Source: a virus
Strand: one strand, 5' to 3'
Virus record (IMG/VR): IMGVR_UViG_3300036845_000487
Span: 1 to 24,760 of that record
DNA length: 24,760 bases
Shown here: piece after piece, positions 1,462-16,328 of the stretch
How positions within the stretch are numbered: position 1 is the stretch's first letter
Layout of the letters: every line of letters starts with the position of its first letter
The notes under the pieces: generated by a model
Seen by the model: the letters and a program-made list of their open reading frames with translations, nothing else
Database searches by the model: none
What the model was told of the DNA's origin: nothing
Made by a program: the position numbers and the translations under genes

Positions 1462-1478
1462 GTCAAGTATGAATTGTC
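1462..1478. promoter_or_regulatory. Operator-like palindrome GTCAAGTATGAATTGTC
   Basis: This 17-base site matches the GTCAAG-N5-CTTGTC pattern at 13 of 17 positions relative to the copy at 8799-8815. It lies 53 bases upstream of the minus-strand gene starting at 1409. On the minus strand it contains TTGACA, usable as a -35 box. It is one of nine such sites in the window. Confidence 0.5.
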
Positions 1479-1755
1479 GGAGGACCCGCTATGGGGGACC
1501 CAAAAAGGGGACCCAACTTCTGGTGGAGGGGGCCCCGATTTGGGAAAAATGGTGGGGGTATGTGGGGCGATCTCTACCGGCCGGGGTTCGGCTAAAGTGT
1601 CCAGGGCGTCCCCCCTCCGGGGGCGCCGCGGTGCTGCGAGTAACGTGCAAGTCGTCATGCAGTATATGTGTGTATAGTGATGTACTGGTATGTATTCGAT
1701 CGAGGCCGTGCAGTGCTCGCAAGGTTAGTGATGAAGAGCGTCACGCTGTCCCACC

Positions 1756-1894: not shown

Positions 1895-2473
1895 CTAAGC
1901 ACCCTCGTCGGGGTCTGAAAGCTCTTCATATTCAGCGTCTTGCGCCTCATCGACGGGCCCAGGGATCAAGCCTTGGATCGCGGCCTGATCGAGCAGCGCC
2001 CTCAACGCGGCGCGGCCAACATCGTCGAGGCTGGCGGGGTCGATGACGTGCCTGGTGGTCGTCTGCAGCTCGCCCTCGACCTTGAGCGTCCTGGCTGGCC
2101 CGTAGCGGCCGTTGTCCCAGCAGGCCAGCAGGCGCAGCCGCATCTCGCACTGGGCCTTGGCGCGTAGCACGGCGGCCGTGTTGAAGTGCGGGACGCCTTC
2201 CTTGTCGAACACCACGTCCTCGCTCTTGTCGTCGATGATCTCCAGCACCTCGACCGCCAGGCTGTCCCAGCCGAGCGCCCGCGCCGAGGCGATCTCCTCG
2301 GCGTAGGCTGGGTCCTTGTGCTCCCAACTGCTGACTGTCCGCTGGCTGGTGCCATGCCTCCTGGCGACGACGCTCAACGGCAACCCGCCCATCAGCCCGC
2401 GCACCACGTCAGCCTTCAGCTGCTCTCGATCGAGGCGGCGCTGGCGCCAACCTGGGGGGTCGTGCTTCGACAT
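1895..2473 (-). CDS. Terminase small subunit-like protein
   Basis: The 192-residue product starts MSKHDPPGWRQRRLDREQLK. An N-terminal helix-turn-helix (about residues 16-55, with SVVARRHGTSQRTVSSWEHK) would bind the phage packaging site. A helical oligomerisation region follows (YAEEIASARALGWDSLAVEV, then AVLRAKAQCEMRLRLLACWD), then an acidic tail. This architecture matches the small terminase proteins of many alphaproteobacterial prophages. The frame is open without a stop up to ATG 2725, so an automatic caller would give a 276-residue protein at 1895-2725. I prefer ATG 2473 because the terminase homology begins there and an operator-like palindrome sits just upstream (2485-2501). ATG 2473 lacks a clear Shine-Dalgarno site, so the start is uncertain. 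The large subunit is not in the window. Confidence 0.72.
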   Translation of the reverse strand: MSKHDPPGWRQRRLDREQLKADVVRGLMGGLPLSVVARRHGTSQRTVSSWEHKDPAYAEEIASARALGWDSLAVEVLEIIDDKSEDVVFDKEGVPHFNTAAVLRAKAQCEMRLRLLACWDNGRYGPARTLKVEGELQTTTRHVIDPASLDDVGRAALRALLDQAAIQGLIPGPVDEAQDAEYEELSDPDEGA

Positions 2474-2484
2474 CGCGCACGCGA

Positions 2485-2501
2485 GACTAGCATCACTTGA
2501 C
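2485..2501. promoter_or_regulatory. Operator-like palindrome upstream of the terminase small subunit
   Basis: On the minus strand this reads GTCAAGTGATGCTAGTC, 13 of 17 identical to the site at 8799-8815. It ends 11 bases before ATG 2473. This supports an independent transcription start for the terminase gene rather than read-through from 2725. Confidence 0.5.
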
Positions 2502-2725
2502 AAGATGCGGGAGCCGGCCCGTCGCCTCGTCATCCTGCCGGCGAGGCCGCATTGACCCGGCAGCCGCCAGGCCATGCAGTCCGACCCGATGCAGCGCGAG
2601 AGCGGGCGCCAGTCGTCGTCCACTCCCCTGATCTGCTCCTTGCCGTTGCTGGCCTGCCAGTAGTCGCCGAGCTGCACGATCCGCACGAACGGGCACCACT
2701 TGGTCCTGGCTTCATCCTCGGTCAT
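2493..2725 (-). CDS. Small Cys-containing phage protein, frame joined to terminase ORF (possible frameshift)
   Basis: From ATG 2725 (AAAGG 10 bases upstream) the frame reads MTEDEARTKWCPFVRIVQ and then CIGSDCMAWRLPGQCGLAGR. This resembles a family of roughly 60-70-residue stand-alone phage proteins with the C-x4-C-MAW and CGLAG signatures, possibly metal-binding. In the literal sequence it runs in frame into the terminase small subunit. If one base is missing near 2530, the frame would instead end QDDEATGRLPHLVK with a stop at 2493-2495, giving a normal-sized separate protein with good third-position G/C. Function unknown. The alternative is a true fusion, 1895-2725. Confidence 0.45.
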
Positions 2726-2746
2726 CTCAACAACCTTTGCTGTTTA

Positions 2747-2827
2747 CCCCTCTCAAGGGGTGAGCCCCAAGCGAACCCCACCCCCCCCACGCAGTGGGGG
2801 TAGGGGGAACCCCCCCGTAAGGGGGGG
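2747..2827. other. Cluster of G/C-run hairpins
   Basis: Three inverted repeats lie in 80 bases: CCCCT-CTCA-AGGGG (2747-2760), an imperfect C-run/G-run pair around an ACGCAGT loop (about 2777-2806), and C7-GTAA-G7 (2810-2827). They lie upstream of the 2725 start and next to the GGATCGAAG repeats. They could terminate the early leftward operon, or structure the DNA around a packaging or replication site. Sequence alone does not decide. Confidence 0.45.
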
Positions 2828-2853
2828 TAGGTGGATGGCGAACACCAATACCG

Positions 2854-2982
2854 GGATCGAAGGGGGGATCGAAGCCTCCTAAAGTGGATCGAAGGCAACT
2901 TTAAAGGAGGATCGAAGGGTGGATCGAAGCTACCTGAGATGGATCGAAGGGGGATCGAAGGGGGATCGTAGGGGGATCGAAG
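2854..2982. repeat. Nine iteron-like copies of GGATCGAAG
   Basis: GGATCGAAG starts at 2854, 2866, 2886, 2909, 2921, 2941, 2952 and 2974, with a one-base variant (GGATCGTAG) at 2963. Start-to-start spacings are 12, 20, 23, 12, 20, 11, 11 and 11 bases, mostly near one or two helical turns. All copies have the same orientation. No gene overlaps them. The position immediately upstream of the terminase small subunit unit suggests terminase binding sites (pac or cosB). An iteron replication origin is the main alternative. Confidence 0.8.
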
Positions 2983-3041
2983 CCAGCAAAAAGCCCCGCC
3001 AGCGGCTGCCAGCGGGGCTCAAGCTCAGCCATGTCAGGCGC

Positions 3042-3293
3042 TCAGCGCGGGATCGGCACGCCCCGAACCCACGGGCCCATCTCGTCGGTCACCGCCTGCA
3101 GCTGGAAGCGCAGCTGCGCCAGCAGCGCCTGCGCCCCAGCATAGTCCTTCCCGGCCCGCACCGCGGCCGCCAGTCGGGCCACGCGCAGCTTGGGCACGCC
3201 CAGCGCCCGCGCCAGGTCGCCCTGCCACTTGTCGCCGTAGAGCCGCTCAGCGAAGCCTACGAGGGCCGCGGCGTAGTTCGGCGGGGTCTGCAT
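3042..3293 (-). CDS. Small phage protein with possible helix-turn-helix
   Basis: The 83-residue product begins MQTPPNYAAALVGFAERLYG. The segment KWQGDLARALGVPKLRVARL (about residues 22-41) has the spacing of a helix-turn-helix, and the rest is helical. Its ATG (3293) overlaps the stop of the upstream gene as TGATG, so the two are translationally coupled. It is the last gene of the leftward early operon before the repeat region at 2854-2982. A DNA-binding role is inference. Confidence 0.7.
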   Translation of the reverse strand: MQTPPNYAAALVGFAERLYGDKWQGDLARALGVPKLRVARLAAAVRAGKDYAGAQALLAQLRFQLQAVTDEMGPWVRGVPIPR

Positions 3294-3574
3294 CAGCTTT
3301 CCTCCGCCGGCAGGTCGCGCAGCCCGCGAGCGTAGGCGCGGGCGAACGGCTCGCTGTAGCAGAGCTTCGACAGCGCATGCTGCTTGCCCTGCGCGGCGTG
3401 GACGACGGTGACGCCGAAGATCGGCTCGCCGAGGAAGCCCTCGCCCTGGCTGATCTCGAACGCGTAGTCGCCCGACCAACCGTAGCGAACCACCCGCGGG
3501 GTCATGGGGTTCGGCGTGTCGTCGTAGGCGCCGCGGATCAGGTCGCGGGCCGAGGTGGTGGTCTTCTCGTCCAT
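3293..3574 (-). CDS. Small phage protein of unknown function
   Basis: The 93-residue product begins MDEKTTTSARDLIRGAYDDT. It has a mixed alpha/beta pattern, with WSGDYAFEISQGEGFLGEPI in the middle and an Ala/Arg-rich C-terminus. No catalytic motif or membrane segment was seen. It is tightly coupled to its neighbours: its ATG at 3574 abuts the stop of the 3574-3993 gene, and its stop overlaps the next ATG. Not recognised. Confidence 0.7.
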   Translation of the reverse strand: MDEKTTTSARDLIRGAYDDTPNPMTPRVVRYGWSGDYAFEISQGEGFLGEPIFGVTVVHAAQGKQHALSKLCYSEPFARAYARGLRDLPAEES

Positions 3575-3993
3575 CAGTCGATCCCCCAGGGTGCGCGGTC
3601 ATACTCGCGCGAGGCGCGGATGGCATCGAGCAGCACAGCAGGCGCTTCGTCCTCGCTGGCGCCGCCGATCTGCGTGGTGATCTCATCGCAGAGACGCTTG
3701 GCCGCGCTCGTCGACCAGGCCGCGTCCTCGCACGCCTGGTAGGCGTAGCAGTCGACCTGCTTCAGCAGCCAGGCGACGCCCGGCCCGCGCACGGCGCCGG
3801 CGAAGCTGAACGCCGCCGTCAGCTGGCCGTCTTCGTTGAAGTAGGGCTCGGCCCGCTCATCGTAGCGAGCCCGCAGCGAGCGCTCGTTCTCGCGCAGCAA
3901 CGTCTCGCCGACGATCGCCGGGTCGCGGCCGAGGTCGGCCAGCGCCGTCGCCAGGACGGCTATGTGGTTGTGGGTGCAAAGCCAAGCAGACAT
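3574..3993 (-). CDS. Phage protein of unknown function (139 residues)
   Basis: The product begins MSAWLCTHNHIAVLATALAD. The leader GGAAAGGACCGAACCA directly precedes ATG 3993 and gives a strong ribosome site, which fixes the start. The sequence is helical, with features such as YFNEDGQLTAAFSFAG and a Cys/Tyr-containing stretch (LLKQVDCYAYQACEDAAW). I recall similar proteins in prophages and phage-like islands, often beginning with a CTH-x-H-I pattern, but no function is established. The long opposite and offset frames here are shadows. Confidence 0.78.
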   Translation of the reverse strand: MSAWLCTHNHIAVLATALADLGRDPAIVGETLLRENERSLRARYDERAEPYFNEDGQLTAAFSFAGAVRGPGVAWLLKQVDCYAYQACEDAAWSTSAAKRLCDEITTQIGGASEDEAPAVLLDAIRASREYDRAPWGID

Positions 3994-3999
3994 TGGTTC

Positions 4000-4096
4000 G
4001 GTCCTTTCCGATGGGGCTGATCCCCACGCCCTCGGCCCCGGCCCAGCTTGCGCTGTCGGGGCTCTGGCGCGCGTCGAGCGCGGGATGGGGCGACGG
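4000..4096. repeat. Duplicated intergenic module, copy A (hairpin plus leader)
   Basis: This gap is homologous to 5272-5368. Both carry the ribosome-site leader, a G/C hairpin and a shared 23-base identical block (4062-4084 matching 5334-5356). The hairpin here pairs GCCCCG (4035-4040) with CGGGGC (4057-4062). It sits between the stop of the 4097-4393 gene and the start of the 3574-3993 gene, and could act as an attenuator or RNA processing site. Confidence 0.6.
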
Positions 4097-4393
4097 TCAG
4101 CCCACCTTGCGGTGGAGGGCAGCGGCCAGGGTGCGGTTGTGGTCGCGCAGGTCGGGGTAGACGTGCGCGAGCGCCTGCTGCAGCGCCAGGAGCTGCGCGC
4201 CGCGGATTTGCACCATCGGGTGGCCCGTGCTGTCGCTGGGCGCGTCGTGGGCGCGGTTGACGACCTGCGCGGCGACATCGACGAGCGCCGCGACAGCGCC
4301 CGGCGCGGGTGCGCTCGGCCCGTTGGAGGGGCGAAAGCCCTGCGCCCAAAGGGCGTCGAACTGGGCCTGCGTGAGGGTGGTGGTGATGGTCAT
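4097..4393 (-). CDS. Small phage protein of unknown function with FDxLWAQGFRP motif
   Basis: The 98-residue product begins MTITTTLTQAQFDALWAQGF. The motif FDALWAQGFRP (about residues 12-22) is shared with the C-terminus of the neighbouring 4876-5268 protein. The remainder is helical, including a C-terminal segment AQLLALQQALAHVYPDLRDH. AGGAG lies 8 bases before ATG 4393. It is part of the leftward operon of small genes; role unknown. Confidence 0.75.
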   Translation of the reverse strand: MTITTTLTQAQFDALWAQGFRPSNGPSAPAPGAVAALVDVAAQVVNRAHDAPSDSTGHPMVQIRGAQLLALQQALAHVYPDLRDHNRTLAAALHRKVG

Positions 4394-4439
4394 TGGGGTA
4401 ACTCCTGAAATTGGGTTGGTTGAGATGGTGGTGCGCGGC

Positions 4440-4778
4440 TCAGCGCGCCTCGGGGCTGGCCGGGACCGACACGAACAGCTCGCCCGTGGCGACGCGGGCG
4501 CGCAGGGCGTCGAGCTGAGCGCGGACGGCGGGGGTGTCAAACGCCACCGCGTCCTTCCAGACGCCTTTGTGGCCATAGGGCACGTCGAACACCACGACGC
4601 TGTAGCTCTCGCGGCGCTCGTCGCCGCGCAGCACCGCCTTGCGCAGCTGGGTGAAGACCCGGAAGCTGCGATCGTCGCCGGCCGGGGCGTGGTAGACGTT
4701 GCCGATGTAGCCGCAGCTGACGCCGAGGTCGGCATAGTCGGCCTTGAGTTGGGCCTCGGGGTCGATCCAGGTAGTCAT
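4440..4778 (-). CDS. Small phage protein of unknown function
   Basis: The 112-residue product begins MTTWIDPEAQLKADYADLGV. A predicted mixed fold contains SCGYIGNVYHAPAGDDRSFR and YSVVVFDVPYGHKGVW. GGGAAAGGACC precedes ATG 4778. It is the first gene after the promoter-like element at 4817-4855, so it heads a sub-operon. Not recognised. Confidence 0.75.
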   Translation of the reverse strand: MTTWIDPEAQLKADYADLGVSCGYIGNVYHAPAGDDRSFRVFTQLRKAVLRGDERRESYSVVVFDVPYGHKGVWKDAVAFDTPAVRAQLDALRARVATGELFVSVPASPEAR

Positions 4779-4816
4779 CAGTGGGTCCTTTCCCTCAGTG
4801 CGTTGAACGCCCCCCT

Positions 4817-4855
4817 CTTATGAGGGGAGCGCCCAATGATGTCAATTCGATATCA
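4817..4855 (-). promoter_or_regulatory. Leftward promoter with palindromic operator over the -35 box
   Basis: On the minus strand, TTGACA (4840-4845) and CATAAG (4817-4822) are separated by 17 bases, a good sigma-70-like pair. The 19-base near-palindrome TGATGTC-N5-GATATCA (4837-4855) covers the -35 box. The same element recurs at 6285-6303. It would drive the gene starting at 4778. The likely binding protein is unknown. Confidence 0.55.
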
Positions 4856-4875
4856 GGTAGGACAGGACGCCGCAG

Positions 4876-5268
4876 TCAGCCTGCCTCCCCGCTGGTCGGC
4901 CGGAAGCCCTGGGCCCAGAGCTTGTCGAACAGCGCCTGGGCCTCGACGCGACGCTCCTCGTCGAGCTGCGCCTGGCGCGCATCCTCGGCCGCCTGCCAGA
5001 CGGCGTGCGCCTGGGCCAGCGCCTCGGGCGTCGTCGACCGCTCGATCTCGGCCCGCACCCAGGCCCACTTCTTGGCCTCCAGATTGAGGCTGCGGTGGTC
5101 GCTGCGACCGCGAACATCGACGAGCGGGTTCGAGTGGATGACGCCGTCCTTGTTGCGGCCATCGGGGGTGAGCCAGACGTGGTAGCGGCGCTCGGCGTCC
5201 TGCCAGCCGGCGCTGTAGCGCATGCTGCTGGAGCTGAAGTCGCCGTGGAAGGTGATGGTGATGGTCAT
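4876..5268 (-). CDS. Phage protein of unknown function ending in LWAQGFRP motif
   Basis: The 130-residue product begins MTITITFHGDFSSSSMRYSA from ATG 5268, preceded by GGGAAAGGACCC. The N-terminal half is beta-rich and the middle is a charged helix (AEDARQAQLDEERRVEAQAL) that could form a coiled coil. The C-terminus carries FDKLWAQGFRP, nearly the same as the N-terminus of the 4097-4393 product. An in-frame ATG further upstream (5298) lacks a ribosome site. Unknown function. Confidence 0.75.
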   Translation of the reverse strand: MTITITFHGDFSSSSMRYSAGWQDAERRYHVWLTPDGRNKDGVIHSNPLVDVRGRSDHRSLNLEAKKWAWVRAEIERSTTPEALAQAHAVWQAAEDARQAQLDEERRVEAQALFDKLWAQGFRPTSGEAG

Positions 5269-5271
5269 GGG

Positions 5272-5368
5272 TCCTTTCCCTGGGGGCCGATCCCCCACGC
5301 CTTCGGGCCCCGCCCGGCGACTGCCGTGGGGCCCTCTGGCGCGCGTCGAGCGCGGGGATGGCGGGGCG
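5272..5368. repeat. Duplicated intergenic module, copy B (hairpin plus leader)
   Basis: This is homologous to 4000-4096 and shares the identical block at 5334-5356. The hairpin pairs GGGCCCC (5305-5311) with GGGGCCC (5328-5334), in the same relative place as in copy A although the stem sequence differs. A compensatory change of that kind hints that the RNA structure is kept. It separates the 5369-5680 and 4876-5268 genes. Confidence 0.6.
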
Positions 5369-5680
5369 TCAGCGCACTAAGGGGTGGTGCGTCATCCCGC
5401 GGGTCATGTGGCCATGCCAGATTTCGGGCGGGATCGGCTTGACCTCGGGCGCCTCGCGGTCGTCAGCGGTGGCGACGAGGGCCCGGCAGAGGAACTCGGA
5501 GTCGAAGAGGCGGACGGGCTGCGTCCAGCGCTGACTGGCGGCCCGCCACTTCACCACGAAGGGCGCCCCACCGGAGGTGAAGTGGTGCAGCTTGGCGTAC
5601 TGGCGCGCGCCCTTGCTGCCGAAGCTGACGAAGATGCCGTCGCCGCGCCGCAGACGCATCAGGTCGGGATGGGTGGTCAT
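5369..5680 (-). CDS. Small phage protein of unknown function
   Basis: The 103-residue product begins MTTHPDLMRLRRGDGIFVSF. The early part (GDGIFVSFGSKGARQYAKLH) suggests a small beta-barrel-like fold, followed by FVVKWRAASQRW. GGGAAAGGACCC stands a few bases before ATG 5680. The gene lies within the leftward operon between two unknown genes. No enzyme motif was seen. Confidence 0.73.
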   Translation of the reverse strand: MTTHPDLMRLRRGDGIFVSFGSKGARQYAKLHHFTSGGAPFVVKWRAASQRWTQPVRLFDSEFLCRALVATADDREAPEVKPIPPEIWHGHMTRGMTHHPLVR

Positions 5681-5750
5681 GTGTGGGTCCTTTCCCAGGT
5701 GAGCACTGGCGCTCAGATGACGGGCGCCGCAACCGCCCGTCTGCTGAAGG

Positions 5751-6224
5751 TCAGCTGCGCTCGCAGGGGATGGCGCGGGTGAGGTAGCCGGCCCACTCGG
5801 ACGACCGGCACGCCCTGAGGGCGAGGTCTTCGCGACTGGCCCAGGTGAGCGCGTGCCAGATTTCGCCGCCCGCGTGATCCGCCTCGACCTGGGCGGTGCG
5901 CGCGGCCAGCTGGGCGGCGACGTAGGCGTCGGCGTCGGCATAGGCGCCGACCGCCTCGACCGCTTCGGCCAAGCCCTTCTCGCGCCGCGCGGCGGTCTCC
6001 TCGGGCGTCTCCCAGCGGTAACGCTCGACAGCGTCGTCGATGAAGCTGCGCCAGTAGGCGTAGTTGCTGCGGTCGCCGCGCTGGTGCGCGGGGGCCTTCG
6101 CTCGGGCGAGGTCGACATCGTAGAGCCGCCGGCCGATCACGACGTGGCTGTAGACGCGGCTCTGGCTGACGCGCTTGGCGATCGAGCCATCCGGCAGGGT
6201 CGCGGTGTGGGTGGTCTTAGGCAT
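5751..6224 (-). CDS. Phage protein of unknown function (157 residues)
   Basis: The product begins MPKTTHTATLPDGSIAKRVS from ATG 6224. The leader GGGAAAGGACCCCGCCA sets the start, while an in-frame ATG at 6293 would run through the promoter. The first third contains a YSHVVIGRRLYDVDLARAKA pattern. The centre is a helical, charged region (ETPEETAARREKGLAEAVEA) and the C-terminus includes WHALTWASREDLALRAC. It is the first gene after the palindrome-promoter at 6266-6303. Phage-type hypothetical. Confidence 0.76.
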   Translation of the reverse strand: MPKTTHTATLPDGSIAKRVSQSRVYSHVVIGRRLYDVDLARAKAPAHQRGDRSNYAYWRSFIDDAVERYRWETPEETAARREKGLAEAVEAVGAYADADAYVAAQLAARTAQVEADHAGGEIWHALTWASREDLALRACRSSEWAGYLTRAIPCERS

Positions 6225-6265
6225 TGGCGGGGTCCTTTCCCTTAAGGCCGTTAGATGAGCCCCCT

Positions 6266-6303
6266 GCTTAAGGGCCGCCCAGAGTGATGTCAAACGGATA
6301 TCA
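6266..6303 (-). promoter_or_regulatory. Second leftward promoter with palindromic operator over the -35 box
   Basis: On the minus strand, TTGACA (6288-6293) and TTAAGC (6266-6271) are 16 bases apart. The near-palindrome TGATGTC-N5-GATATCA (6285-6303) covers the -35 box and overlaps the last codon of the primase-helicase gene. It is the same element as at 4837-4855 and would restart transcription for the small genes below the primase. Confidence 0.55.
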
Positions 6304-8238
6304 CCTCTCAGGTGCGACAGGTGGTCCTACCCGTTCGATGAAGCTGATCTGCCGGGACTTTGGACCCCAGGTTCCGACGCGGATGGCGCCGACGACGAAC
6401 TGCCGGTTCATCGCCGCCTGGAAGCCTTTCATGGTGGTGCCGTGGGCGCGTGGATCAGCGGCGAACAGGGTGGGCCCGTAGTTGCGGCCGGGGAGGTGGC
6501 TGACGGTGCGGCCCTCGGCCTTGAAGGCGTCGAGCAGCTGCAGGAACTGCGCGTCGACCCGGTCGGCGGCAATCTGGCGGTCGAGGCCCGACGCCGCCGG
6601 GCCGCTCAACTCGTCGCAATCGAAGGCCCCGGCCACGTAGCGCAGCCGCAGCTCGGCGCCGGCCTGGGTGTAGTTGGCCTTCTTGACCGCGAGCGTGCGC
6701 AGGTTGGGCTCGGACGCGCCGCCGTCCTCGGCGACCGGCGCCGACATGAACATCCGACTACGGACGGAGTTGTTCCAACCCGTTGAGCCCGACAGGCCGC
6801 TGCCCGTGGCGAGCCCCGTCAAGCTCGGGTGACCGAGCAGCAGCATGGCGGTGTCGGCCGGCATCGCCAGGCCGCGCAGCAGCCGCACGAACTGGCGCAC
6901 CTGGCTGCGCTCGTTCTCGTTGGCCCCGTACACGTCGGCCAGGCTGTCGAAGACCACCAGCGCCGGGCGATCTAGCTCGACGAACCGCCGCAGCTCCTCC
7001 CACCTCGGCGTGGCCTGCAGCGCCTGGCCTGGCGCGCCCGTCACCAGCAGCGCGTCCTCGTCGGCCAGCGACCACATCGTCAGCCCTGGCGCGCGCTCCA
7101 GCGCCACCCCGTAGAACGTGCTGATCTGATCGGTGCGGCGGTGCAGCTCGTCGCGGTCATCCTCGGCCGACAGATGCAGCGCCCGCCCCTGGCGTACCTG
7201 TTGGCCGATCCAGGGGAGGCCGGCGGCCGTCGCGAAGGCCAGCTGCAGCGCCAGGATCGACTTGCCGACGCCGCCGTCGCCGCCCAGCAGCGTGACGGTG
7301 CGCGCCGGCACTAGGTCGGGGACGTGCCAGACGCGGGATGGGACCAGCAGGCCCTCAAGACTGGCGGCCGTGAACGCGCCGATCAGCGCCGGGGCCGCCA
7401 CGCCATAGGCCGGCAGCTCGGCGGCCAGCGCCTCCAGGTCGGCGGCCGTGTGGCCCTCCAGGTAGTCGCTGGCGTCGCCCTTGGGCGGGCACGCGGGCCA
7501 GGCCTGGCTGAGGTCTTCCAGCAGCCGTACCCGCGCGGCCACCGGCGCCAGCTGCGCCGCCACCGCCCGCGCATGCTCGCGGCCAGCCTCGTCGTTGTCG
7601 CCGAGCGCGACGACATCGGCGCCCTTGAAGTACGGGTTCAGCGCCGGCTTCCACTTGCCGGCCCCGCCAGCGTTGGTGGTCGCCGCCAGGCCCTCAGCGC
7701 GCAGCCGATCGACATCGCGCTCGCCCTCGACGACCCAGATGGTCCGCCCCTCGGCAATGGCGCTGATCAGCTCGGGCAGCCGGTAGGGGATCGGCTCGAT
7801 GCCCTTCGTCGACCATATCCAGTCGCCGTGCCCGTCCGGGCGCCGCTGCACGAACGCCTTGGGCCGCTTGCGGCACACCTGGAACACCAGCGCCTGGTCG
7901 GCCGCTTGGTAGCCGTAGGTCTGCACGATGTGAGCAGCGCCAGGGTCATGCCCGTTCGGCTTGGACGGCGCCGGCGCCGGGTAGTTGGTGTCGATCCAGT
8001 CCCAGGCAGCGTCATGGTCGAGCAGCTCCTGGCGCTCGACGAAGGTGACGACGCCGCCGCCCTCCTTGATCTCGTGGTTGTAGAAGAGGCCCTTCACGGG
8101 ATCGACGGCCATCGAGCCGTGGGTCCCCCAGCGCAAGAGCGTCGGCGTCGAGAGTTGCGGGTTGGGATCGCCGAGCAGGCGCCGGGCGACTGGCTCCATC
8201 AGGGAGCGTAACTCCGCGTCACTGCGGTACGCGGGCAC
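6301..8238 (-). CDS. TOPRIM primase fused to RepA-type (AAA_25) helicase
   Basis: This is the phage replication protein, 645 residues, starting GTG 8238 after a strong GGAGGGGGG ribosome site. The N-terminus (residues about 30-70, including GLFYNHEIKEGGGVVTF) is the zinc-less N-domain type seen in phage primases. A TOPRIM core follows, with VVEGERD (E171) and GDNDEAG (D214, D216) for metal binding. The helicase part has Walker A GGDGGVGKS (319-327), Walker B VVFD (428-431) and a GH motif near 470, as in RepA/AAA_25 ATPases. It would prime and unwind phage DNA. The gene overlaps the RuvC-like frame by 20 bases and follows it in the Cro-led operon. The family assignment is confident, but primase activity is not proven by sequence. 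Confidence 0.93.
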   Translation of the reverse strand: MPAYRSDAELRSLMEPVARRLLGDPNPQLSTPTLLRWGTHGSMAVDPVKGLFYNHEIKEGGGVVTFVERQELLDHDAAWDWIDTNYPAPAPSKPNGHDPGAAHIVQTYGYQAADQALVFQVCRKRPKAFVQRRPDGHGDWIWSTKGIEPIPYRLPELISAIAEGRTIWVVEGERDVDRLRAEGLAATTNAGGAGKWKPALNPYFKGADVVALGDNDEAGREHARAVAAQLAPVAARVRLLEDLSQAWPACPPKGDASDYLEGHTAADLEALAAELPAYGVAAPALIGAFTAASLEGLLVPSRVWHVPDLVPARTVTLLGGDGGVGKSILALQLAFATAAGLPWIGQQVRQGRALHLSAEDDRDELHRRTDQISTFYGVALERAPGLTMWSLADEDALLVTGAPGQALQATPRWEELRRFVELDRPALVVFDSLADVYGANENERSQVRQFVRLLRGLAMPADTAMLLLGHPSLTGLATGSGLSGSTGWNNSVRSRMFMSAPVAEDGGASEPNLRTLAVKKANYTQAGAELRLRYVAGAFDCDELSGPAASGLDRQIAADRVDAQFLQLLDAFKAEGRTVSHLPGRNYGPTLFAADPRAHGTTMKGFQAAMNRQFVVGAIRVGTWGPKSRQISFIERVGPPVAPER

Positions 8239-8831: not shown

Positions 8832-9083
8832 TCAGCCTGCTGCGTCGGTCGTCTCGGAGGGCGGCGCGTCGTAGAGGTCGGGACGGAGGCGCCAAGGGGG
8901 TATGCCGGTGACATCTGACAGCTGGCGGACCCATTCCGCCGGAACCGCGTGCCATCCGCTGATCGCCTGCTTGGTGATGCCAAGCTTGAGGCCGATCTCC
9001 TTGAGGTTGCCGTATTGCGAATACCGGAAGGCTTCGACCGCCTTCTGTGCCTCAGGCGAGGGAGTGCTTGCGCGCTTCGCCAT
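8832..9083 (-). CDS. Cro/YdaS-like DNA-binding regulator
   Basis: The 83-residue product begins MAKRASTPSPEAQKAVEAFR. The helix-turn-helix is NLKEIGLKLGITKQAISGWH (residues about 26-45), followed by VPAEWVRQLSDVTGIPPWRL and RPDLYD, the ending typical of Cro/YdaS-type regulators. It is the first gene of the leftward early operon, divergent from the CI-like repressor across 81 bases. By analogy with lambdoid switches it should oppose the repressor. A half-site CTTGAC lies at 9090-9095 just upstream of its ATG. YdaS-type antitoxin is a naming alternative, but no toxin partner is seen. Confidence 0.82.
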   Translation of the reverse strand: MAKRASTPSPEAQKAVEAFRYSQYGNLKEIGLKLGITKQAISGWHAVPAEWVRQLSDVTGIPPWRLRPDLYDAPPSETTDAAG

Positions 9084-9164: not shown

Positions 9165-9731
9165 GTGATCGAGACCCCCACCATCGGCGCGCGCATCGCG
9201 CTGGCCCGCGACACCTACCGGCTGAGCCAATCGCAGCTGGGCGCCAACCTGGGCGTCACCCGCGCGGCGGTCAGCCAGTACGAGCAGGACAAGATCAGGC
9301 CCCGGCCGAGGGTGATCGACCGCCTGGCGGAGATGTTCAACTCGGACCCGGAGTGGTTCGAGCGTGGCAGCGGCAAGGGGCCCGACGTGCTCGACGTGCC
9401 GGTGACCATCCCCGAGATCAACATCGCGCTGCTGACGCTGCAGGCGCCTGATCCACGCGAATTGCACGTCGGTCGCCACTGGCGGCTGCCGAGCGCGACG
9501 TTCGAAGAGATCGACAAGCTCCGTGATCACATGGTCGCGATCCTGGCCCCGAACGACGCCGCGCCGATCCTGGCTGGTGACAGGGTTTTGATCGACACCC
9601 GGCGACATCGCGGCGCCGGCGTGTTCCTCTTTATCGATCCGATCGGGGTGCGGCTCTCCAGCCGTGACGGCAACTTCCCGAGCAAGGCGCGGATCATCGG
9701 CCGCGCTATCGGCTACCTGCGGACGCTCTGA
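9165..9731 (+). CDS. CI-like phage repressor (XRE helix-turn-helix plus degenerate S24/LexA-like domain)
   Basis: The 188-residue product begins MIETPTIGARIALARDTYRL (GTG start). The XRE domain is clear: SQSQLGANLGVTRAAVSQYE then QDKIRPRPRVIDRLAEMFN (residues about 18-60). The C-terminal 65 residues (AAPILAGDRVLIDTRRHRGA through IIGRAIGYLRTL) match the beta fold of S24 peptidases and LexA. The usual Ser-Met nucleophile region reads NDAAPIL, and the expected Lys strand reads GVRLSSR, so self-cleavage looks impossible. It likely maintains lysogeny by binding the GTCAAG-N5-CTTGAC sites. It faces the Cro-like gene and is followed by a 129-base control region. Confidence 0.87.
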   Translation: MIETPTIGARIALARDTYRLSQSQLGANLGVTRAAVSQYEQDKIRPRPRVIDRLAEMFNSDPEWFERGSGKGPDVLDVPVTIPEINIALLTLQAPDPRELHVGRHWRLPSATFEEIDKLRDHMVAILAPNDAAPILAGDRVLIDTRRHRGAGVFLFIDPIGVRLSSRDGNFPSKARIIGRAIGYLRTL

Positions 9732-13227: not shown

Positions 13228-13418
13228 GCGTCGTCGTCCCGCTCTCCGACCAGATCAAGTGCGCTGAGCGCGAGGTGGCGCTGCGCAAGCGCGCCTACCC
13301 GAAGTGGGTGCAGTCGGGGCGCATGAAGCGCGAGACCGCCGACTACGAGATCGCCGCGATGGAGGCCGTCCTGGCGAGCCTGCGGGCGCTGTTCAGTGTG
13401 CAGGCGACCTGGCTATGA
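13224..13418 (+). CDS. Small conserved phage protein (64 residues)
   Basis: The product begins MSVVVPLSDQIKCAEREVAL. The body (RKRAYPKWVQSGRMKRETAD then YEIAAMEAVLASLRAL) is a two-helix charged protein of a type I recognise from many proteobacterial prophages, usually uncharacterised and sitting among recombination genes. The ATG overlaps the previous stop as ATGA. It may be a coiled-coil or nucleic-acid accessory factor; that is inference. Confidence 0.82.
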   Translation: MSVVVPLSDQIKCAEREVALRKRAYPKWVQSGRMKRETADYEIAAMEAVLASLRALFSVQATWL

Positions 13419-13870
13419 AGACGATCCCGCCGGCCGACCAGATCGAGATCGTGCGCGCCGAGGACCCGCCGCCGCTGCCGTCCAAGCCGCTGCCGGACAC
13501 AACGCCGCTCAGCGAACTGCACCTCACCGCTCGCCCGCGCGGCGTCCTGAAGACCTACCGCCGCTACGAGCTTGGCGGCGCCCGCGATGACTGGGGCATG
13601 CAAGTGGTGCTGGCGACGGTCGGCGATCTCAGGCGCGAGAGCGACGCCTCCCTGCTGCGCCAGGAGAACTTCGGTCGCAAATCCCTGATCGAGCTGCGCG
13701 AGGCCTGCGGCGATACGGTCCCCTATGACCGGAGGCTCTATCCCCCGTCGCTGGCCCAGGCGCTCGGTGAAGACAAGGCGCAGATCGTCATGGCCATACG
13801 GTCGGTGGCGGGTCAGCTGTATCGGCTCGCTGAGCTGATCGAGCAGGCTGCGCGGAAGGGGTCGCTATGA
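13415..13870 (+). CDS. RNA polymerase alpha-CTD-like (helix-hairpin-helix) phage protein
   Basis: The 151-residue product begins MKTIPPADQIEIVRAEDPPP. Residues about 29-103 resemble the C-terminal domain of RNA polymerase alpha: TTPLSELHLTARPRGVLKTY aligns with the PVDDLELTVRSANCLK helix, and VGDLRRESDASLLRQENFGR plus KSLIELREAC aligns with the hairpin region ending in LGKKSLTEI. The Arg matching E. coli R265 and the Gly-Arg/Lys-Lys-Ser turn are kept. About 15 extra residues (around ELGGARDDWGMQV) sit between the two halves. There is no alpha N-terminal domain. It might compete for UP elements or bridge activators to polymerase. The start ATGA overlaps the preceding stop. Confidence 0.8.
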   Translation: MKTIPPADQIEIVRAEDPPPLPSKPLPDTTPLSELHLTARPRGVLKTYRRYELGGARDDWGMQVVLATVGDLRRESDASLLRQENFGRKSLIELREACGDTVPYDRRLYPPSLAQALGEDKAQIVMAIRSVAGQLYRLAELIEQAARKGSL

Positions 13871-15327: not shown

Positions 15328-15898
15328 CCGCATGACCAAGGCCGAACGCGACGACCTGGTGCGGCTCATCAAGCAGCGCGAGAAGGTCGCCAAGACGGCG
15401 GCCGAGCAGCGCTCGGCGGCGATGCTGGCCGAGTTCGAACGGCAGGTCAGCGCGCTGCACAACTTCGCCACCGACGAGGTGTGGAGCGCCGCCGCCCAGG
15501 CGGCCGCCGACGCCGCGAAGAAGTGCAACGAGGAGATCGCGGCCAGGGCCAAGGAGCTTGGCATCCCCGACGAGTTCGCGCCGAAGCTCACCTATGGCTG
15601 GTCGCGCCGCGGCGAGAACGAATACCAGGCTCGGCGCGCCGAGCTGCGCCGGGTAGCGAAGGCCGAGATCGAGACGGTCGAGGGGCTGGCGCGAGTGCAG
15701 ATCGAGGCGCAGTCGGTCGAGGCGCAGACCCAGGTCATCGCCCACGGGCTGACCAGCGAGGCGGCGATCAGCTTCCTGCAGAACATGCCGGCCATCGAGT
15801 CGCTGATGCCGCCGCTCGATGTCGCCACGATCCAGGCCAAGATCGCCGAGAACGCACGCGGCCGCGGCGCCCGGCCCTACCTGCTGACCGATGATTGA
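15320..15898 (+). CDS. Phage protein of unknown function (192 residues)
   Basis: The GTG start at 15320 gives MADRMTKAERDDLVRLIKQR. The first 100 residues are helical and charged and may form a coiled coil (REKVAKTAAEQRSAAMLAEF, AAAQAAADAAKKCNEEIAAR). The centre has KLTYGWSRRGENEYQARRAE, and the last third is helical with VATIQAKIAENARGRG. This organisation is seen in phage proteins near replication genes, but I cannot assign an activity. It overlaps both neighbours by 8 bases. Confidence 0.8.
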   Translation: MADRMTKAERDDLVRLIKQREKVAKTAAEQRSAAMLAEFERQVSALHNFATDEVWSAAAQAAADAAKKCNEEIAARAKELGIPDEFAPKLTYGWSRRGENEYQARRAELRRVAKAEIETVEGLARVQIEAQSVEAQTQVIAHGLTSEAAISFLQNMPAIESLMPPLDVATIQAKIAENARGRGARPYLLTDD

Positions 15899-16328
15899 GC
15901 GCGGCGCCAGCGATGAGGCGCGCGAGGTCTACCTGGACCTCAAGCAGCGCTACCGCTTCCTCTACGGGATGGGCCTGCAGGCGCGCCTGGCCACGCAGGG
16001 CCAGGACATCGTCGACTGGTGGGGGATAGGCAGGCCCGGCGAGCGCCGGCCGCCAGTGGCCACGCCAGAGCCGCGCGCGCCGGCTCGGTGGGGCGACCTT
16101 CCCGATCGGGTGCGGGAGACCATCCGCGCCGTCGCCGCCGAGCGCGGCGTGCCGGTCGAGAAGATCATGGGCTACCAGCACCTCGCCAGCTACGCCCAGG
16201 CGCGCCAGGAGTGCTACCGGCGCCTGCGCGCCATGCCCTGGCGGGGCGGCCACCCGAGCCTGCTGCAGATCGGGCTCTGGCTGCACCGCGACCACACCAC
16301 CGTCCACCACGGCCTGAAGCGAGGATAG
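15891..16328 (+). CDS. DnaA domain IV-like phage DNA-binding protein
   Basis: The 145-residue product begins MIERGASDEAREVYLDLKQR. Residues about 75-145 match the DnaA DNA-binding domain: VRETIRAVAAERGVPVEKIM then YAQARQECYRRLRAMPW, and LLQIGLWLHRDHTTVHHGLK, which contains the DnaA-box signature RDHTTV. DnaA domains I-III (including the AAA+ ATPase) are absent. It could bind DnaA-box-like sites in phage or host DNA as a replication or transcription modulator. The linker (RRPPVATPEPRAPARWGDLP) looks disordered. Confidence 0.87.
   Translation: MIERGASDEAREVYLDLKQRYRFLYGMGLQARLATQGQDIVDWWGIGRPGERRPPVATPEPRAPARWGDLPDRVRETIRAVAAERGVPVEKIMGYQHLASYAQARQECYRRLRAMPWRGGHPSLLQIGLWLHRDHTTVHHGLKRG

Follow-up and report, generated by a model that had tools for sequence, protein, structure and literature searches.

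A candidate replication origin in a phage-like record, and iteron arrays 3′ of RepA-like primase-helicase genes

The DNA analyzed here (the window), an entire IMG/VR record of 24,760 bp that lacks end repeats, harbors an array of short direct repeats upstream of the gene for the terminase small subunit (terS, Table 1). The repeat, GGATCGAAG, occurs eight times exactly and once as a variant, in a single orientation (+ strand) and far above chance. Because the neighboring genes (1895-2725 and 3042-8238) lie on the - strand, its functional reading is CTTCGATCC. Successive copies are separated by 12, 20, 23, 12, 20, 11, 11, and 11 bp, the gaps of 20 and 23 bp corresponding to about two periods. 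These positions bear out the description given in an earlier interpretation made from the letters of the window alone (the sequence-only reading), namely eight perfect copies and one variant in the same orientation, spaced by 11-12 or 20-23 bases. Allowing at most one mismatch to GGATCGAAG gives 22 matches in the whole window, vs. a mean of 6.8 and a maximum of 13 in shuffles; the 13 near-matches that lie outside the array are scattered. On the gene strand, CTTCGATC reaches 9 copies per 300-bp stretch, a count attained in 0 of 200 dinucleotide shuffles (mean 3.4). Tandem Repeats Finder detects only the segment 2941-2982, with a period of 11. Neither an Rfam search nor a DNA similarity search with 2480-3330 against phage records returned a match. 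The region is not strongly AT-rich anywhere near the array, the lowest GC content per 50 bp being 48% (2875-2949).

Table 1. Features of the array region and of the primase-helicase gene (positions in the window)
Feature	Position	Strand	Basis
Exact GGATCGAAG copies	2854, 2866, 2886, 2909, 2921, 2941, 2952, 2974	+	Read from sequence
Variant copy GGATCGTAG	2963	+	Read from sequence
Iteron array, nine CTTCGATCC (one variant), period of about 11 bp	2854-2982	-	Sequence and same array in L059
C/G hairpin CCCCCCCTTACGGGGGGG	2810-2827	-	One pair altered on both sides in L059
C/G hairpin CCCCCACTGCGTGGGGG	2784-2800	-	Sequence, compared with L059
C/G hairpin ACCCCTTGAGAGGGGT, just ahead of small ORF	2746-2761	-	Sequence, compared with L059
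Terminator-like hairpin ending upstream operon	2988-3019	-	Read from sequence
Block of small genes from primase stop to array, absent at the corresponding place in L059	3042-6227	-	
Conserved short ORF preceding terS, a gene of its own in L059	2541-2725	-	
Terminase small subunit (terS)	1895-2473	-	PF20901, E=5e-12; phrog_1482
Primase-helicase and proposed reader of the iterons, with an RSF1010 RepA-like AAA_25 core, a weak match to Toprim and a predicted winged helix at the C-terminus	6301-8238	-	
C-terminal winged-helix domain	6304-6606	-	Structure model, mean pLDDT 81

The array follows an upstream gene of the - strand that ends at 3042 and is flanked on its other side by three C/G hairpins (2746-2827), the G/C hairpins that the sequence-only reading had placed beside it. 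That reading had also put the array directly upstream of terS; it does lie upstream, 381 bp from the ATG, with a small ORF (start 2725) in between. In the window, this KWCPF-type ORF and terS share a single open frame (1895-2725; 276 codons); they are two genes in the close relative L059, and the ORF is seemingly absent from a second relative, L089. A conserved, apparently non-coding element found 3′ of terS (window 1470-1600, L059 4640-4780; + strand GGGACCCAAAAAGGGACCC ... TTTGGGAAAAATGG ... GTATGTGGGG) is a candidate recombinase or packaging site; L089 and L116 seem to have pieces of it close to the resolvase and terL, in a four-way alignment that is not decisive. In three relatives, terS and terL are separated by a gene for a serine resolvase that is oriented convergently to terS (L059:4958-5626, L089:1403-2119, L116:7692-8369). 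Elsewhere in the window, the ORF 13304-13870 weakly matches the C-terminal domain of the RNA polymerase alpha subunit (E=9e-5, below Pfam's cut-off).

Beyond the array lies the gene for a primase-helicase, whose stop codon is 3.3 kb away, the interval being filled by small genes. The helicase core of the protein matches AAA_25 (E=1e-32) and the structure of RSF1010 RepA (1g8y, E=5e-8). In the model of its last 101 residues, the order of elements is helix-helix-helix-strand-strand, as in a winged helix, and the structural neighbors are mostly winged-helix domains, none of them close (Foldseek E of at least 0.06; Z scores of at most 8.3).

Homologues of the primase-helicase were found in the contigs L059 (65% identical), L079 (73%), and L081/G001 (58%). 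In L059, a CTTCGATCC array with nearly the spacings of the window begins 23 nt past the primase stop codon and is followed by the same hairpins, small ORF and terS as in the window. G001 carries an array of CTTCCAACC/CTACCAACC at the contig end, and L089, found via terS, has CTTCAGACG/CTTCACACG repeats. A further relative, G007 (L133-L136; 65,970 bp with a 123-bp end repeat), looks complete: opposed sets of CTGCGTCCCCC flank an AT-rich stretch upstream of terS (32560-32990), which is a PICI-like layout, while its helicase (45010-47244) has a D5/SF3-like half in place of the RepA-like half and no array behind it. Wherever terS is visible in a close relative (L059, L089, and G007), an array lies upstream of it, as in the window; the absence of the array from close relatives, which the sequence-only reading had named as evidence against itself, did not occur. 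Among these relatives the position of the array is constant and the sequence of the repeat variable. Viral contigs searched with terS or with the 3042-3305 protein as the only query returned no relatives, and the terS alignment had no match in genome contigs; at the loci found via the small ORF (L091-L108), inspection by eye of up to 450 bp before the ORF revealed no array. Some other contigs with pairs of GGATCGAAG contain many copies with a regular period of 15 or 18 bp (e.g., L031, L046, L057) or a period of 22 bp (L025) and were set aside as they looked unrelated. At the start of one of these, L025 (positions 10-180; IMGVR_UViG_3300025652_000386), GGATCGAAGTRA-like repeats recur mostly at 22-bp intervals, possibly another origin with a nearly identical iteron.

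The placement seen in L059 recurs behind this helicase family at large. Homologues of the helicase were gathered from 385 alphaproteobacterial and 398 proteobacterial genomes, and an array was defined as an 8-mer repeated in the 300 bp after the stop codon to a degree matched by at most 1 of 60 shuffles. Such an array occurs in 19 of the 38 usable helicase 3′ regions of proteobacterial genomes, vs. 1 of 35 stretches 600 bp further on (Fisher 3e-6) and 3 of 164 stretches located 3′ of other ORFs (Fisher 2e-13), and in 46 of 76 helicase 3′ regions of viral contigs (L059 and G001 included) vs. 3 of 74 control stretches (Fisher ~1e-14); both sets contain related sequences, so that the Fisher values overstate independence, but most arrays are nonetheless distinct in sequence. 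Under this strict criterion, 30 of the 76 viral and 19 of the 38 genomic helicases have no array. Each of the 46 viral arrays begins no more than 45 nt past the stop codon (median 4.5), the spacings peak at 11 bp, and 75% of the spacings up to 24 bp measure 10-12 bp. The iteron sequence is specific to the element and often CTTC-like. In the viral set, C/T-rich iterons (e.g., CTTCCACC, CTTCCAAC, CTTCAGAC, CTGCAAAC) are read in gene orientation in 30 cases vs. 2 reversed, a family that CTTCGATCC of the window and CTTCAGACG of L089 fit. Hairpins of the CCCC-loop-GGGG type follow 12 of 38 such helicase genes vs. 0 of 35 controls (shuffle expectation ~3). Named examples include Rhizobium phage RHph_Y3_1, with six copies of CGTTCCCA directly 3′ of the helicase gene, and Wolbachia phage WO, with seven copies of AAGTTGGC directly 3′ of RepA. 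In the phage WO sequence KX522565.1, the AAGTTGGC/AAGATGGC array lies directly after the ATPase/RepA gene gwv_1128 (L191:3940-4260) and is a candidate for the WO origin; iterons do not come up in a term search of a WO genomics paper (PMC9203015).

Comparing proteins with iterons points to the helicase as the partner of the array. The similarity of iterons correlates with the similarity of C-terminal domains once the contribution of the core is removed (partial r 0.34, p 0.001). Since the helicase core also tracks the iteron (partial r 0.29), the assignment of iteron reading to the C-terminal domain is not clean. The window and L059, which have a common iteron, are 83% identical in the helicase C-terminal domain and 72% in the core, whereas the window and G001, with different iterons, are 56% identical in the C-terminal domain. 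With so few sequences, each comparison between close relatives is weak alone.

The candidate readers encoded elsewhere in the window agree less well with the iteron. If the array were a pac site, TerS rings would bind the repeats beside their own gene, the terminase would cut and headful packaging would begin there. Its position upstream of terS in the window and three relatives would suit this role, as would the distant loci, in 4 of 10 of which terS is the next recognized gene past the array, and the end repeat of G007, as circularly permuted genomes often assemble in this way. However, the terS genes next to distant arrays come from unrelated families, and many helicase-adjoining arrays have no recognized terS in the next gene. 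Repeat and TerS helix-turn-helix would be expected to co-vary at a pac site bound by TerS, and in the three sequences available for this comparison they do not: the window and L059 share one iteron with differing TerS recognition helices (SQRTVSSW vs. SEPTVLYW), and the helix-turn-helix regions are closer between L059 and L089 (66%), whose iterons differ, than between the window and L059 (56%). In addition, DNA binding by the small terminase of SF6 depends little on the local sequence (PMC4737164). We regard a pac site as unlikely. A packaging role appears weakened only, because an origin beside a packaging gene could serve both purposes; that the iterons of an origin double as regulatory sites or as the starting mark for packaging would agree with the position of the array at the early/late boundary, kept in close relatives, but the combination seems quite improbable.

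With an operon terminator on one side and the leading gene of the packaging operon on the other, the array could also be an operator, through which a regulator of the phage, be it the CI-like protein 9165-9731, the Cro-like protein 8832-9083 or the small helix-turn-helix protein 3042-3305, would govern the terS transcript. CI/Cro-type repressor families usually bind palindromes, whereas the sites of the array are asymmetric direct repeats. Moreover, the recognition helix of the Cro-like proteins is identical in L059 and G001 and those of the CI-like proteins nearly match in the window and G007, yet in both pairs the iterons differ; the 3042-3305 protein has no homologue in L059, which carries the identical iteron. 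An operator is very improbable. Overall, iteron identity appears to track the helicase and not the TerS helix-turn-helix, CI or Cro. The DnaA-C-like protein 15891-16328 was also considered as an array binder and rejected, with no tblastn match in relatives; the L059 sequence ends before that position.

We consider it probable that the array is the iteron part of a phage replication origin, bound by the primase-helicase, likely via its C-terminal winged helix, with unwinding towards the C/G hairpins and Toprim priming there or close by. The direct basis of this assignment is the array itself, its conservation, its position 3′ of the helicase family and the co-variation of iteron and helicase; from these we infer binding, the iteron-reading domain, unwinding, and priming at hairpins. 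The primase-helicase would sit on one face of the DNA and bind the CTTCGATCC sites, spaced by about 11 bp, most likely with its winged-helix domain. The RepA-like ring would then load, open the duplex and unwind it towards the neighboring C/G hairpins, at or near which the Toprim part may prime. The sequence-only reading had left the choice between packaging signal and replication origin; the arrays 3′ of the helicase in L059, in the viral and genomic sets and in phage WO speak for its second half, while an iteron that does not follow the TerS helix-turn-helix and arrays lacking terS in the next gene speak against the first. The GC skew it had proposed as a check gives no origin signal; skew follows gene direction and is therefore uninformative on the origin. 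Counting against an origin, the array is not adjacent to the primase stop in the window, adjacency being seen in relatives only. The lack of a strongly AT-rich stretch and the helicases without an array (30 of 76 viral, 19 of 38 genomic) also weigh on this side. The main awkward case is G007, where the array is still upstream of terS and the helicase has the D5/SF3-like half.

The wider proposal, for which we see about even chances, is that primase/RepA-helicase/winged-helix proteins initiate replication in phages and prophages of Pseudomonadota, Wolbachia phage WO included. Each would read a private iteron of 8-11 bp, recurring at each helical turn immediately 3′ of its own gene, beside C/G priming hairpins, and initiator and origin would move and diverge as one cassette, forming a widespread and apparently undescribed replicon class. 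A literature search covering journals open without subscription found no description of such an origin, whether for phage WO or for AAA_25 helicases. To our knowledge, most temperate phages other than the model systems have no known origin. If the proposal is true, the origin could be read from sequence as an array behind the stop codon of a RepA-like helicase, a rule that would cover dozens of phages and prophages, phage WO among them, and the rule of position (array 3′ of the initiator gene) appears to be much more general. Some 65 initiator/iteron pairs would then form a natural set and a route to how the predicted winged helix selects DNA.

Several known systems combine parts of this arrangement. 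At pac sites of the SPP1/SF6 type, repeats also lie near terS; in the window and its relatives, TerS specificity does not track the iteron, and SF6 TerS itself has little local sequence specificity (PMC4737164). SCCmec Cch2 is an initiator helicase that, like SaPI Rep, uses its C-terminal domain to read direct repeats located a short way 3′ of its gene (PMC7581432). It differs from the window in its helicase class, its separate primase-polymerase and its three iterons of 5 nt.

In plasmid RSF1010, priming occurs at small hairpins (ssi sites, RepB′) after unwinding by RepA (PMC4234260). The helicase core of the window is related to RSF1010 RepA by family match and may likewise form a hexamer, as predicted by family. 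Its iterons also lie beside hairpins resembling the ssi sites of RepB′ priming (PMC4234260); the C/G hairpins are kept in L059 and similar ones follow helicase genes in the genomic set (12/38 vs. 0/35), their priming role being putative. In contrast to the separate RepA, RepC, and RepB′ of RSF1010, the window combines helicase, weak Toprim match and predicted winged helix in one polypeptide. The oriV iterons of about 20 bp are bound by a separate RepC, whereas the window has 9-mers every ~11 bp; the protein scans revealed no RepC-like gene.

The closest layout is that of SaPI/PICI origins, where iterons lie immediately 3′ of the initiator-helicase gene (Rep/Pri-Rep), often with terS further on, specificity resides in the C-terminal domain and primase and helicase are sometimes fused (PMC6092414, PMC7581432). 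The iterons are 3.3 kb from the corresponding gene in the window; L059 and 46 of 76 viral homologues have them directly 3′ of it. Unlike SaPI/PICI origins, which have two iteron sets around an AT-rich region, a layout seen only in the relative G007, the window has one unidirectional set and C/G hairpins without an AT-rich core. The element is a phage-like record with a helicase of the RSF1010 RepA-like (AAA_25) type. The arrangement is thus of a known kind, the SaPI/PICI origin 3′ of rep, and what is new here is the helicase class, the single iteron set and the hairpins.
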